DNA of 47,350 bases from Hahella sp. (GTDB lineage: Bacteria; Pseudomonadota; Gammaproteobacteria; Pseudomonadales; Oleiphilaceae): NCBI GenBank assembly GCA_028280065.1, contig JANQMN010000021.1:1-47350 (forward strand), written 5' to 3'. The position numbers and the translations under genes were made by a program. Below are positions 18,975-24,386 of the stretch, piece by piece (the first letter of the stretch is position 1; each line of letters starts with the position of its first letter). The notes under the pieces are model-generated. The model ran no database searches and was not told the origin of the DNA. It saw only the letters and a list, made by a program, of their open reading frames with translations.

Positions 18975-19145
18975 ATGAACGAATACCAAGTTAGAGCCCT
19001 GGAGATCATCAAAGATCCGAATCAAACCCATGAAGCCAAGTGGATGGCGACGGAAATGTTAATGAATGCAGGATTCTCCAAGCAGCAAATCAAATGGCTC
19101 ACGGAGGATGCTTCTCAGGATACCCCCTTCATTTTTTGGGCCTAA
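18975..19145 (+). CDS. Small hypothetical protein (56 aa)
   Basis: Short frame with a GGAG about ten bases before ATG 18975. The product (MNEYQVRALEIIKDPNQTHE at its start) is a compact helical-looking peptide, with EAKWMATEMLMNAGFSKQQI resembling an amphipathic helix-turn-helix. I do not recognise it. It lies 113 bp before the CBM21-bearing AraC gene and is co-directional with it, so it could be a small partner or a leader ORF. It may also be non-coding. Confidence 0.5.
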   Translation: MNEYQVRALEIIKDPNQTHEAKWMATEMLMNAGFSKQQIKWLTEDASQDTPFIFWA

Positions 19146-19258: not shown

Positions 19259-20827
19259 ATGGCTGGCAAACAAATAATAGAAGGAAATCCGGACATCCTG
19301 GTCCAGGAACAGCTTGACCTCGCTTATAACAACTTCCCTTTAAAGGCGATTGAGTTGGCCAACGGTCGAATCTCCCTCGACAGCTTTTTAAGTCAGGCGG
19401 ATTATCAACTGCTTGCCTGCGATAATCTTGACCAGGGTTTGCAAGCTTGGGTTCGTGTAATTTCGCCTGTTTCCAGGGATGCCCTCATCCATCTGTTGAA
19501 ACAACGGGGGGGAACCCTACTGCTTCTGGAAACTCCAGCAGCGCTTTCCAGCGCCTGGCTCCACCTGTTGCGCGCGGTCGAACTCCGGTTGCAACGTTTT
19601 GTGCCCAATAGCGGCTACTCAAGAGCCTTGAAATGGCAGTGGCAAATCCACTCACGAAAGAGCTGGCTCGAAGGTCGTGATATCGGCCTGCAAAACTGCA
19701 CCCGTGGTTCGCAAAATCACCTGCTTTTACCCGCAGACCTAACCAGATACTTCTATCCGGATCCGCTGCCGCGCGTACACCAGCTGCTGGATTTATATGT
19801 ACAACAAGTATTACTGGATCAGGGGCCGACCCTCAATCTGGTAGAGCAATGCAAGCAAATCCTGTTGCGAGCACTGCCACGGGTTCTGAAACTTCCCGAT
19901 TTAGCGGCGGAGTTGGATCTTTCCGGGCGCGCCCTGCAACGCAGGTTACAGGAGGATTCCGCCAGTTATTCCGAACTGCTATCCCAAGTACGACAGGTCA
20001 AGGCTCGTAGTCGATTGGTCGACAGCAAAGTATCGGTACAGCAACTGGCTAGCGAGTTGGGCTTCGCAGAGCCCGCGAGCTTTATCAGAGCCTTTACCCG
20101 CCTGGAAGGTTGTTCGCCGGCGGAATATCGTCGTCAATCCCAACTGCAGCATGCGGCGGCAGCCCATCATCCGGTACGGCTTTATTACGCGGAGAACTTT
20201 CTCCAAACCAAGGAGGCTCATTCCCGCCGCGGCGCCAAGGTGTGGATAGCGATTCAGAATCTCGCCTATAGCAAGGAAGTCTCAGTCGCATGTGAGGATT
20301 TGGACGGTACCTGGCGGCGTTACGCCTGTAGCTTCGAAAGGTGGATTTCAGAGCATTTCGAACTCTGGTCCAGCTGCAATATTCCGGTGTTTAATCCTTT
20401 TCGCTTCCGCATTTATTATCGGGTCGGCCACGTGTTATACACGGACGATAACGACGGCCATGACTACATACTATCTCAGGAAGACGCCTATCTTTTAGGA
20501 AAAGTCGATGTCGTTTGTCAGCACCTGGATTTAATTCAACTCCCGGACCGATTTCTCCTCACGGGCAGAATTCTTAGCCGCCGACAGGGTGCGGATAAAT
20601 TGACGGCGAGTATCAGAAATGACCATACCAACAAAGTTGAGAGGGTGCCTGCAACAGCGATAAGGCACAATCAGCAGGGTGTGATGCAATGGCACCTGGG
20701 CATCGAAATCAAACGCAAGAAATTACCGGCAAACTCAACTCTCAGAGTTACTTTTCAGCACGATTCCGCCAAGGAAAGCACCATAGAAGACAATGAAGGG
20801 CATGGCTTTATCCCGCGTTTTTACTAA
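19259..20827 (+). CDS. AraC-family regulator fused to C-terminal CBM21-like domains
   Basis: 522-residue protein. Residues 1-195 are an unassigned effector or oligomerisation region. An AraC-type DNA-binding domain follows, with helix-turn-helix LPDLAAELDLSGRALQRRLQ (212-231) and a second one around VSVQQLASELGFAEPASFIR (258-277). Residues 325-405 match a CBM21 starch/glycogen-binding domain: VWIAIQNLAYSKEVSV, an FRIYYRVG strand and DDNDGHDYIL. Residues 430-522 look like a second, diverged copy ending IEDNEGHGF. No signal peptide or membrane segment, so it is cytosolic. ATG 19259 is chosen because in-frame codons upstream overlap another small gene and read as non-coding. It lies 121 bp before the GH13 lipoprotein gene and probably controls it. 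Confidence 0.8.
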   Translation: MAGKQIIEGNPDILVQEQLDLAYNNFPLKAIELANGRISLDSFLSQADYQLLACDNLDQGLQAWVRVISPVSRDALIHLLKQRGGTLLLLETPAALSSAWLHLLRAVELRLQRFVPNSGYSRALKWQWQIHSRKSWLEGRDIGLQNCTRGSQNHLLLPADLTRYFYPDPLPRVHQLLDLYVQQVLLDQGPTLNLVEQCKQILLRALPRVLKLPDLAAELDLSGRALQRRLQEDSASYSELLSQVRQVKARSRLVDSKVSVQQLASELGFAEPASFIRAFTRLEGCSPAEYRRQSQLQHAAAAHHPVRLYYAENFLQTKEAHSRRGAKVWIAIQNLAYSKEVSVACEDLDGTWRRYACSFERWISEHFELWSSCNIPVFNPFRFRIYYRVGHVLYTDDNDGHDYILSQEDAYLLGKVDVVCQHLDLIQLPDRFLLTGRILSRRQGADKLTASIRNDHTNKVERVPATAIRHNQQGVMQWHLGIEIKRKKLPANSTLRVTFQHDSAKESTIEDNEGHGFIPRFY

Positions 20828-20948
20828 TCAACCACTCCTGAGCTGTCGCGAAATATCAATGCTATTGACGCAATAGGACGATTTCTTAATTGATCCAGTC
20901 CTTAAACTATCACCCATCCTTTCGTAGAGTAACAGGGTGAGAAGAATA

Positions 20949-23900
20949 ATGATCCAAAATAACATTTCTTTTCGTCGCCGCTTGCTATTGGCCGCGATTG
21001 CCTCAGCCGTAGCGCTGAGCGGTTGCAGCGACAACGGTAACAATAGCAATAACGACGATGACAGCGGCGTAGACATCAGCACCAACCTGCACGTGGCATC
21101 ACCTGAGTGGCAGGACCAGATCATCTACTTTGTCATGACCGACCGGTTCAATGACGGAGATCCCAGCAACAACGATCAGGGCAGCGGCGAATACAATCCG
21201 GAAAATAAGGATTTTTATAGCGGTGGCGATTTAAAAGGCATTACCGACAAGGTGAATTACATCCAGAATCTCGGCGCGACGGCGGTCTGGATTACGCCTC
21301 CCGTGGCGAACCTCTGGTTTGATCAATCCATTCCTTTTACCGGTTACCACGGATACTGGGCGGAAAACTTTAAGGAAGTCGATGCTCACTATGGCACCTT
21401 GGACGACTATAAAAACCTTTCCAGTGCCCTACACAATAAAGGGATGTATTTAATCCAGGATATAGTCGTCAATCACACCGGCAACTTCTTCGGTTATGAG
21501 GGCGGCATTGCCGGCTGGAGCACCGATGATCCTGCGCAGAACTTTATGCTGAACGATCAGGCAACGCCCCAGGTGCGCCCAAGCCAGGCTCCCTTTGACT
21601 TGAACGACGCAACCAATCCCGAACATGTCAGTGCTGCTATCTATCACTGGACACCTGACGTTGAAGATTTCCAGGATGAAAACCAGGAAAAGAACTACCA
21701 GCTACAGTCGCTAGACGACCTCAATACCTCTAACCCGGTAGTTCGCGAGGCCATGCGCGACTCCTATGCCTACTGGATTGAAGAAGTGGGGGTGGATGCT
21801 TTCCGCGTCGATACCGCCAAGTTTGTCGAACACGAGTTTTGGCATGACTTTTTTCATAGTACCGATGCAGAGAATCCTGGAATCCTAGCCGCGGCGGCAG
21901 CAACCGGTCGCGATAACTTCCTGGCGTTTGGGGAAGTGTTCGAATCCTCACTGCCATTTGAAACTACGGGAGATGAAAAGGTTGTCAGCTATCTGGGCAG
22001 CGATGACGTACCTGAGTTTCCTTCCTTGATACAGTTTCCACTCCGGGAAGATATCGACCGGGTGTTTGCCGGTGGATTGCCAACCTCGTTGCTCGCTTTC
22101 CGGCTGGAAACCTTTATGGATGAAACGCTGTATAAAAATCCTTACATCACGCCGACTTTCATCGATAACCACGATATGGCGCGGGTCCGCTCAAAAACCC
22201 TGTCTGCCGGGATGAAGCAAGCCTTGGCATTTATCATGACTATTCCCGGTATCCCCATTATTTATCAGGGCACCGAGCAGGAGTTCACCGAGTCCCGGTC
22301 CTCGATGTTTGCCGGCGGTTGGCAATCGGAGGACGCGGACCACGTCAATACCGATCACTTTAATGAAAACAGCGATATATTCCTGCATATCCGGCAACTA
22401 GCCGATTTACGGAAATCCAACAAGATATTTACTCGGGGAACCCTGGAAATTCTGGCTGAGAACGGCAGCGGACCCGGCGTTCTGGCCTACCAGCGCGAAT
22501 ATGAAGGCAAAACCGCGATAATCGTTTTTAACACCGCTGACGGTGAGCGTCTATTGAATCTGGACACTGATCTCGCTGCGGGGACCCGACTCGACCTGAT
22601 GTTCGGCATGGGCGTCAATGGCGGGTTTGTCCTTGGCGAAGAAGGAAAATTGGCCGCAGAGCTGCCGGCAAAATCCATTGCCGTGCTGATGCAAAGTGAC
22701 GAAATTTCAGAAGCCCCTGCTGCGGTATCCGTGACCATCGACCAGACCGTCGACGGTGAAACGCTGACGGAAGACCTGGCGCTGAGCGGCACTTTGACCC
22801 AGGGGGTAGAACGTATGCTATTGGTCGTGGACGGCATCATCGATACCGCGACCGAAGCCAGCATTGCCGACAACGGCAGCTGGAGTGCGAACCTAAGCCT
22901 GGATAACGTTCAATGCGGCGTTTCAGCCCATACCGTCGACTACTACTTCCCGGATCAGGGCGCTGTCGCCTTGTCACAGAGTTTTACTTCCGACGTGCCC
23001 TTCAATGGCGTCAGAATCGTCAGTGACGATCCTACCCGGGACGATACCGGACCGACCGGGCTCTATACCTATCCGGAAGGCGATGGTTCCTACGGCGACG
23101 GGGGGCAGGCGGATATTGAGGAAATGAAGGTTGAAGCCTGTAAGAGCACCCTGTTTGTGACCTTTACCATGAACACCTTAAGCCAGGTATGGGTGCCGCC
23201 TAACGAGTTTGACCATACTTCCTTCAATATCTATCTCGATGTACCGGGAGAAGAAGGCTTGTCCGTACTGCCGAAAATCCAAGCCAATGCACCGGACGGG
23301 TTCCTCTGGGATATCTCGCATCAGGTCTTTGGCTGGAGCAATGAGTTATTTGGCACCACTGACGCTTCGGAAGACAGCAGCGGAAATCCAAGGGGCGTGG
23401 CGCCGACGATTGTCGTCGATGCCGAAAACAACCTTATCCAGTTATCCTACGACGGGCGTTTTCTAGGAATCTCAGACTGGACCGGCACCAAAGTCTATGC
23501 GACCACCTGGGACATCGACGGCTTGGAAAATATCCATCGCGGCTTGAAAACGCCACCCGATCTATGGACCTTTGGCGGCGGCTCGGCGGACGATCCTCTG
23601 ATCATGGATGACACCGAAGTCGTTACCGTACCGGCCATCGGCGGCAACTTCGATGCGGTGTTGACACCCCTCGAACCGGAAGAGGATAGCAACGATGCAA
23701 GCTTGGGACCCTACGGCACCGAACTCTACGTAAGAGGCATCAACGAGGATTGGGAAACCACCAACCAGATGAGTCATGCCGACAACATCTTCAGCTCCAC
23801 CATTGCATTAAACGCAGGAGACCATAACTTCAAGCTCGCGGATGCGGAATGGTCGGCCGGTTCCAACTTTGGTTCCGACGCGGGCTTCGGCGAATCGGTG

Positions 23901-24386
23901 GAAATTTCGCTGGGCACCGCAGTGGCGCTGACCGATGGCGGGGGCAACTTGCAGCTGGCCGGAATCGCCGCCGGAGATTACACCTTTACCCTGGACGCAA
24001 CGGACAGTGCCGCACCCGTGCTAACCGTCACAGGAGGTGTGGATTCCGCGAATCCCTATGGCGTCGACCTCTTTTTGCGAGGAGCAAACAACGAATGGGA
24101 TCCCAACAATAGGCTGAGTTTTGCCGACAACCAGTTCAGCATCGTTGTGGAGCTGAATGCAGGTGACCATACCTTCAAGATCGCCGATGCAAATTGGACA
24201 GCCGGATCTAACTTCGGCTCCGATGCCAGCTTCGGCGAGTCGGTGGAGATCCTGCTGAATACCGGATTAGCCTTAACCGATGGCGGCGGCAATCTGAAGT
24301 TGACTGGTATTGCTGCGGGTACCTACACCTTTACCCTGGATGTTTCGAGTTCGACAACAAGTCCGACGTTAACCGTCACACAATAA
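20949..24386 (+). CDS. GH13 alpha-amylase-type lipoprotein with accessory domains
   Basis: 1145-residue secreted glycoside hydrolase. A lipoprotein signal (LLLAAIASAVALSGC) gives lipidated Cys26, then an Asn/Asp-rich linker. The GH13 barrel spans about residues 50-580: region I DIVVNH, nucleophile Asp288 in FRVDTAKF, acid/base Glu329 in FGEVFE, transition-state Asp409 in FIDNHD. Next come an Ig-like domain (about 590-690), a domain resembling the glucodextranase C-terminal module (about 690-900; FNIYLDVPGEEG, GTKVYATTWDIDGL), and two near-identical beta modules. GTG 20937 is an alternative start. It probably cleaves alpha-glucans at the cell surface; exact specificity cannot be read. The upstream AraC-CBM21 gene is the likely regulator. 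Confidence 0.9.
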   Translation: MIQNNISFRRRLLLAAIASAVALSGCSDNGNNSNNDDDSGVDISTNLHVASPEWQDQIIYFVMTDRFNDGDPSNNDQGSGEYNPENKDFYSGGDLKGITDKVNYIQNLGATAVWITPPVANLWFDQSIPFTGYHGYWAENFKEVDAHYGTLDDYKNLSSALHNKGMYLIQDIVVNHTGNFFGYEGGIAGWSTDDPAQNFMLNDQATPQVRPSQAPFDLNDATNPEHVSAAIYHWTPDVEDFQDENQEKNYQLQSLDDLNTSNPVVREAMRDSYAYWIEEVGVDAFRVDTAKFVEHEFWHDFFHSTDAENPGILAAAAATGRDNFLAFGEVFESSLPFETTGDEKVVSYLGSDDVPEFPSLIQFPLREDIDRVFAGGLPTSLLAFRLETFMDETLYKNPYITPTFIDNHDMARVRSKTLSAGMKQALAFIMTIPGIPIIYQGTEQEFTESRSSMFAGGWQSEDADHVNTDHFNENSDIFLHIRQLADLRKSNKIFTRGTLEILAENGSGPGVLAYQREYEGKTAIIVFNTADGERLLNLDTDLAAGTRLDLMFGMGVNGGFVLGEEGKLAAELPAKSIAVLMQSDEISEAPAAVSVTIDQTVDGETLTEDLALSGTLTQGVERMLLVVDGIIDTATEASIADNGSWSANLSLDNVQCGVSAHTVDYYFPDQGAVALSQSFTSDVPFNGVRIVSDDPTRDDTGPTGLYTYPEGDGSYGDGGQADIEEMKVEACKSTLFVTFTMNTLSQVWVPPNEFDHTSFNIYLDVPGEEGLSVLPKIQANAPDGFLWDISHQVFGWSNELFGTTDASEDSSGNPRGVAPTIVVDAENNLIQLSYDGRFLGISDWTGTKVYATTWDIDGLENIHRGLKTPPDLWTFGGGSADDPLIMDDTEVVTVPAIGGNFDAVLTPLEPEEDSNDASLGPYGTELYVRGINEDWETTNQMSHADNIFSSTIALNAGDHNFKLADAEWSAGSNFGSDAGFGESVEISLGTAVALTDGGGNLQLAGIAAGDYTFTLDATDSAAPVLTVTGGVDSANPYGVDLFLRGANNEWDPNNRLSFADNQFSIVVELNAGDHTFKIADANWTAGSNFGSDASFGESVEILLNTGLALTDGGGNLKLTGIAAGTYTFTLDVSSSTTSPTLTVTQ
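23709..24383 (+). repeat. Tandem duplicated beta modules at the amylase C-terminus
   Basis: Two copies with a period of 345 bases, starting at 23709 and 24054. Each encodes about 110 residues of the pattern PYG..L(Y/F)(V/L)RG.N..W, LNAGDH.FK(L/I)AD..W.AGSNFGSDA, then ALTDGGGNL and YTFTLD. They resemble the carbohydrate-binding modules seen in pullulanases and bacterial amylases (X25/PUD-like), a likeness judged by eye. Confidence 0.85.

Follow-up and report, generated by a model that had tools for sequence, protein, structure and literature searches.

Ordinary members of the AraC/XylS family of transcriptional regulators end at their helix-turn-helix (HTH) domain. In E. coli, the activator of the maltose genes including malS is MalT, which senses maltotriose. 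To our knowledge, the regulators with which bacteria control polysaccharide use are usually taken to respond to small sugars or to extracellular polymers. CBM21 modules are glucan-binding domains in which site II is described as the primary ligand site in PMC9582199 and PMC3398936, from which the site numbering and site roles used below are also taken. We here analyse a stretch of 47,350 nucleotides from Hahella sp. (GenBank assembly GCA_028280065.1, contig JANQMN010000021.1, positions 1 to 47,350 of the forward strand; hereafter the window), in which a gene encodes an AraC-type HTH followed by a CBM21 module and lies next to the gene of a GH13 alpha-amylase. We propose, with a probability of about 0.62, that the product would be a dedicated AraC-family activator of the adjacent amylase, in which binding of a soluble alpha-glucan to CBM21 site II in the cytosol would set activation. 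The features on which the argument draws are as follows.

19259..20827, plus strand: AraC-CBM21 regulator gene (P0001), an open frame of 522 amino acids
19901..20137, plus strand: AraC-type helix-turn-helix (HTH_18), residues 215-293, 65 bits with a cut-off of 33.6
20162..20476, plus strand: CBM21 module (module 1), residues 302-406; site II residues N334, Y337, K339, F359 and E368 kept, site I lost (R384, T395)
20501..20824, plus strand: second C-terminal module (module 2), residues 415-522, of uncertain family; modelled as an Ig-like beta sandwich
19259..19708, plus strand: N-terminal domain, residues 1-150, without a confident family assignment; a low-confidence model shows it as helical
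20949..24386, plus strand: GH13 alpha-amylase, predicted lipoprotein (LSGC), presumed target

The fusion of an AraC regulator with a CBM21 module, as claimed in a first-pass annotation of this DNA, is borne out: Pfam HTH_18 matches residues 215-293 with an E value of 7.6e-18, and the CBM21 module follows in the same frame with no stop between the two. The shorter Pfam AraC model, PF00165, gives 24.9 bits, under its cut-off of 26.6. As for module 1, the Pfam CBM_21 model (PF03370), recommended by the same annotation as a check, matches weakly and under its cut-off of 28.9, with 11.9 bits (E 0.27) at residues 330-405 when the whole regulator is searched and 16.2 bits (E 0.013) for the C-terminal part alone; P0008, a related fusion described below, likewise remains under it with 23.2 bits. 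When the C-terminal part was compared by sequence with solved structures, the starch-binding domain of Rhizopus glucoamylase ranked first (E 0.0025) and antibody chains came next, from E 0.0072, and since antibody chains score nearly as well, single-sequence evidence for CBM21 is marginal. Both results would fit a chance resemblance, or two genes fused by a sequencing error, but recurrence of the fusion refutes this explanation, to which we give almost no credence: a sequencing error, named as a caveat in the first-pass annotation, is excluded because nine other genomes carry the same fusion in one frame. A CBM21 profile of 114 trimmed sequences, among which the window protein is not a row although the trimming profile did include it, gives 69.8 bits on regulator residues 296-420, against 6.3 bits for the best of 2000 shuffles. 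Across the ten regulators, scores against a CBM21 profile were 37.0-65.0 bits. Profile-profile comparison (hhalign) matches module 1 to CBM21 with a probability of 99.4 and an E value of 1.8e-21, the module ends in DDNDGHDY, which lines up with the YWDNNxGxNY at the end of CBM21 proteins, and module 1 has the CBM21 beta-sandwich fold in a predicted model. By these sequence comparisons, module 1 is a CBM21 domain. The full-length regulator model, whose mean predicted local distance difference test (pLDDT) score is 60.3, was used for strand pattern only.

The nine further AraC-CBM21 fusions were found in 9/247 sampled genomes of another gammaproteobacterial order, where they are distributed over three families. 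These 247 genomes were searched with a two-sequence profile of the C-terminal part, which matched 17 places in 11 genomes; nine of the places are fusions of 475-524 residues in which AraC and CBM21 matches are both present, and the remaining eight encode tandem-CBM21 proteins in which AraC is not matched. The first further fusion (P0008, 474 amino acids, genome G1234) came from a search of 398 genomes of the phylum with a larger CBM21 profile, two of the genomes having matches. Across 512 residues, the regulator of locus L168, the nearest relative, shares 44% identity with the window protein. The genome sets are samples and overlap one another, and within them PF03370 revealed no other AraC-CBM21 fusion among 163 genomes of the family (three with matches), 390 of the order (four) or 369 of the class (one, the window genome). 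In each of six other Hahella genomes, the best match to the regulator spans the AraC part only, a search of genome contigs with the whole regulator gave no relative, and among plasmid records P0007 had no match and the best 10 of 404 records for P0001 span 20-29% of the protein. The fusion, considered unusual in the first-pass annotation, is not a one-off; its ten members form a small family.

At 77 CBM21 loci, 112 frames of 204-362 amino acids match CBM21, and none of them matches AraC. A FastTree tree built from 142 CBM21 domains groups the modules of the ten regulators in one clade (support 0.997), placed among the first domains of tandem proteins; the clades that enclose it have supports of 0.76-0.94. 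Because the ten modules form one clade among tandem first domains, the fusion probably arose once, and module 2 may have come from the second tandem domain. CBM21 is found beyond the eukaryotes: Paenibacillus, Aquimarina, Clostridia and others have tandem-CBM21 proteins, mostly of 240-310 amino acids, and at a number of the loci L046-L122 two or three such genes stand in a row. The tandem-CBM21 protein of G006, another genome of the genus of the window, is identical to the one in the Hahella ganghwensis record, so that the window belongs to the genus of this gammaproteobacterium. Tandem-CBM21 proteins of 367-380 amino acids, with an extra C-terminal stretch, were seen in five genomes of the order that carries the nine fusions (L154, L155, L158, L159, L161). 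In addition, contig C95 of the window genome encodes P0002 (L031:1360-2946), in which two CBM21 domains are followed by an endonuclease/exonuclease/phosphatase (EEP) domain. The regulator of genome G1393 (L165:7902-9455) carries a series of LQRR repeats, in frame, within the HTH, which its close relative at L166 lacks.

Two ligand sites can be followed across the ten regulators. At the site II positions N29, Y32, K34, F58, Y67 and E68, the window protein has N, Y, K, F, F and E, and five of the six positions are N, Y or F, K, F and E in 10/10 regulators, position 67 being the variable one. At site I (W47, Y83, Y94), W47 is retained in 9/10 and positions 83 and 94 are without an aromatic residue in 10/10; position 94 is W in 69/70 stand-alone CBM21 sequences. 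The combination of a kept site II and a lost site I would mean that the regulators have kept the soluble-glucan site and lost the insoluble-starch one. Since site II is largely kept in all ten, a putative binding of soluble glucan by the regulator CBM21 is supported indirectly. Between clades, CBM21 is the best-conserved part of the regulator, with an identity of 50.4% compared with 45.9% for the HTH, 23.4% for the N-terminal part and 21.2% for module 2. Within one clade, the nonsynonymous divergence (dN) of CBM21 is lower than that of the HTH in each of six pairs (0.080-0.138 versus 0.118-0.183), the synonymous divergence (dS) of CBM21 being saturated.

AraC proteins usually sense via their N-terminal domain. 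One could therefore imagine that CBM21 no longer binds glucan and serves structure or dimerisation instead, with a small sugar being sensed by the N-terminal domain as in an ordinary AraC protein, and the loss of site I in all ten regulators would agree with this. We find it improbable, as between clades CBM21 is more than twice as well conserved as the N-terminal part, and as the N, aromatic, K, F and E of site II are present in 10/10. The N-terminal part itself has no match in Pfam, residues 1-200 score at shuffle level against a profile of AraC relatives, and hhalign finds a weak resemblance to the middle of AraC proteins (probability 25.5). Its assignment as the usual AraC effector domain is significant in none of the three comparisons (Pfam, profile, hhalign). 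An upstream GTG start at 19040, which would add a hydrophobic stretch, was rejected on account of a low codon score and low GC content and because the stretch is missing in L168.

In all ten fusions, the next gene on the same strand encodes a GH13 amylase; these amylases are orthologs, with 39-50% identity along some 900 residues. The amylase gene is separated from the regulator gene by 116-175 nucleotides (nt), and its product shows a lipobox-like pattern in 10/10. By pattern, two of three GH13 motifs are present in 10/10 amylases and one in 9/10, and the best NCBIfam rows for the window amylase are alpha-amylases of the PRK09505 type, all under cut-off. The window amylase has two AMPK1_CBM-like C-terminal Pfam matches, and its frame measures 1149 amino acids versus 885-929 in 7/9 orthologs. 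Neighbourhoods of the regulator-amylase pair differ between families, as seen at six of the nine loci, and four Hahella relatives conserve the tat-rsmE block found before the pair in the window but lack the pair at this place. In the six other Hahella genomes, amylase matches are limited to 32-34% identity in 2179-amino-acid frames in two genomes, with none at E 1e-30 in the other four. Among the 247 genomes, the amylase is matched with an E value of at most 1e-100 in 16, nine of them being the regulator carriers. Pairwise identities of regulator and amylase are strongly correlated (Mantel r 0.946; 0/5000 permutations), a co-divergence that is expected if the pair travels together. The recurring placement of the regulator before the same amylase suggests control of the amylase gene through direct contact with glucose chains.

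A direct repeat of the type TGGCGCAAAATGACA, with a spacing of 22 base pairs (bp), is common to the ten regulator-amylase gaps, and is a putative operator. In the window gap the predicted elements are the following.

20844..20858, plus strand: predicted operator, distal half-site TGTCGCGAAATATCA
20866..20880, plus strand: proximal half-site TGACGCAATAGGACG of the predicted operator, at a spacing of 22 bp to the distal half-site
20903..20908, plus strand: -10-like TAAACT, 22 nt after the proximal half-site

With a matrix built from the other two clades, the repeat scores 12.5 in the window and 25.6 in L168, neither of which was reached in 5000 dinucleotide shuffles. When each clade was left out in turn, the spacing of 22 ranked first of 29 in 8/10 gaps; against plain shuffles the counts were 3/3000 for the window and 79/3000 for L169. 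The matrix of all ten sites, of which the window site is a part, has its best match over the 47-kilobase (kb) window at the operator site (25.4), the next one scoring 11.3. In the stretches analysed around the CBM21-EEP gene, a further GH13 gene and the three copies of glgA in the window genome, no predicted operator exceeds 10.8, compared with 25.4 at the amylase. A TAnnnT hexamer, noticed afterwards, follows the proximal half-site in all ten gaps, with its start at 23 nt in seven and at 22 nt in three, and a promoter scan of the window gap gave no sigma-70 consensus. In class II AraC activators, the proximal half-site lies against the -35 position, and the layout seen here would set the predicted proximal half-site likewise. 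Control of the adjacent amylase, already put forward in the first-pass annotation, is therefore supported at the level of sequence by the ten fusions preceding the same amylase and by the direct repeat common to their gaps.

From that, one could picture the following mechanism. The regulator, presumably cytosolic, would bind soluble alpha-1,4-glucan through site II of its CBM21, the ligand being either maltodextrins derived from imported starch products or the outer chains of glycogen, and the bound glucan would set whether the regulator activates. A regulator dimer would occupy the direct repeat with its 22-bp spacing, next to the -35 region of the promoter of the amylase gene, and would recruit RNA polymerase to it, acting as an activator rather than as a repressor. 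Affinities reported for CBM21 are 20.7 uM for beta-cyclodextrin and 197 uM for maltoheptaose in Rhizopus (PMC3398936) and 59 uM for beta-cyclodextrin in PTG (PMC9582199); by analogy, values of this kind for soluble glucans would suit a metabolite sensor.

Several observations weigh against this proposal. The window regulator and P0008 fall short of the Pfam CBM_21 cut-off, site I has lost its aromatic residues, and site II position 67 is F in the window protein only, being R, T or I in the other nine. Moreover, the retention of site II may reflect inherited structure, because the same residues, except at position 67, are mostly kept in 70 stand-alone CBM21 sequences too. In three pairs of another clade, CBM21 does not clearly evolve more slowly than the HTH (dN 0.042/0.021, 0.160/0.155 and 0.160/0.171, respectively). 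Of the 16 amylase orthologs, seven have no AraC or CBM21 frame within up to 1.5 kb on each side, one of these regions being cut by a contig end. As to the operator, the repeat and the TAnnnT motif were first spotted by eye in the same ten gaps; the L169 repeat is weak, scoring 4.7 with the other-clade matrix (365/5000 dinucleotide shuffles); a single half-site matrix chooses another place in the window gap (73/5000) and is not significant in L169 (1512/5000); the spacing of 22 ranks 4th in L163 and 5th in L169; and several gaps have hexamers elsewhere that equal or beat TAnnnT as a match to TATAAT.

The identity of the glucan bears on two further explanations. It is possible, and we advance it tentatively, that the regulators read the polysaccharide itself inside the cell, CBM21 docking on long maltodextrin or on glycogen particles, such that the physical state of the polymer store rather than a small sugar sets amylase transcription; docking on a polymer store would then be a bacterial counterpart of the docking of PTG/PP1 on glycogen. 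Alternatively, CBM21 could be a tether and not an allosteric sensor, the activator being sequestered on glycogen while stores are full and freed upon depletion to switch the amylase on. In keeping with such sequestration, glgA is present in 9/9 of the other fusion genomes, the window genome has three copies of it (on contigs C131, C6 and C57), glgA and CBM21 occur in the same 3/7 Hahella genomes and are both absent from the other four, and the CBM21 of human PTG belongs to a subunit that directs PP1 to glycogen, according to PMC9582199. However, glgA is common anyway (11/14 control genomes), the match within Hahella is confounded by kinship, the stretches analysed near the three glgA genes have no predicted operator above 10.0 whereas the amylase has one of 25.4, and site I, which is thought to aid long-chain binding, is lost, so that we consider sequestration unlikely. 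Maltodextrin sensing by the activator is ranked above glycogen tethering because an extracytosolic lipoprotein amylase would be more naturally induced by imported maltodextrin.

Residues 430-522 had been interpreted as a second CBM21, which is not supported by the sequence comparisons. Module 2 scores 4.8 and 3.3 bits against the CBM21 profile, below the best shuffles, and its profile-profile comparison with CBM21 is not significant (hhalign probability 1.3; score 15.4 versus 17.2 for the best column shuffle), so that its assignment to CBM21 by sequence was rejected. A three-row alignment of module 2 gave a probability of 56 against the regulators' own module 1, over 33 columns. Its end, IEDNEGHGF, has counterparts in the two nearest relatives (DDNAGEGY and DDNDGQGY), and it is modelled as a beta sandwich. 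The first model was swayed by the alignment for module 2, but a second, with alignment rows for module 1 only, gave a similar strand pattern for module 2 (pLDDT about 57-68 at residues 421-490). Descent of module 2 from a second CBM21 domain is possible because of the matching ends in relatives and the beta-sandwich model.

Full-text searches of open-licence papers showed no AraC-CBM21 protein, judged by the titles and abstract openings of the papers listed. A conserved family in which a module of the glycogen-targeting type stands beside a DNA-binding domain would make cytosolic polymer sensing directly testable, and for the AraC-CBM21 regulator a target gene, a predicted operator and candidate binding residues can now be named. 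Compared with AraC and other AraC/XylS activators, the window protein shares HTH_18 and a predicted direct-repeat operator abutting the -35 region, but has no recognised arabinose-binding domain, and CBM21 and a second module follow its HTH. MalT belongs to an unrelated protein family, and the likeness lies in function, in that maltodextrin would lead the regulator to act on the gene of a MalS-like amylase. With the RsgI anti-sigma factors of cellulolytic clostridia it would share the idea of coupling polymer sensing to the transcription of degrading enzymes, whereas in RsgI (PMC6056542) the sensory module is extracytoplasmic, is carried by a membrane protein and acts through a sigma factor. 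Among CBM21 modules, the starch-binding domain of Rhizopus oryzae glucoamylase (2djm) is the solved structure that best matches the window protein by sequence, with N29, Y32, K34, F58 and E68 identical; W47 is kept, but Y83 and Y94 are lost, and with them the raw-starch site I. The CBM21 of the human PP1 glycogen-targeting subunit PTG (PPP1R3C) has the tryptophan of YWDNN where the window protein has T395, and differs from the regulator module, which is bacterial and joined to a DNA-binding domain. The CBM21 sequences nearest to the regulators are those of the tandem-CBM21 proteins and of the Hahella CBM21-CBM21-EEP protein, and it is the AraC domain, absent from the CBM21 frames of the 77 loci, that sets the regulators apart from them.
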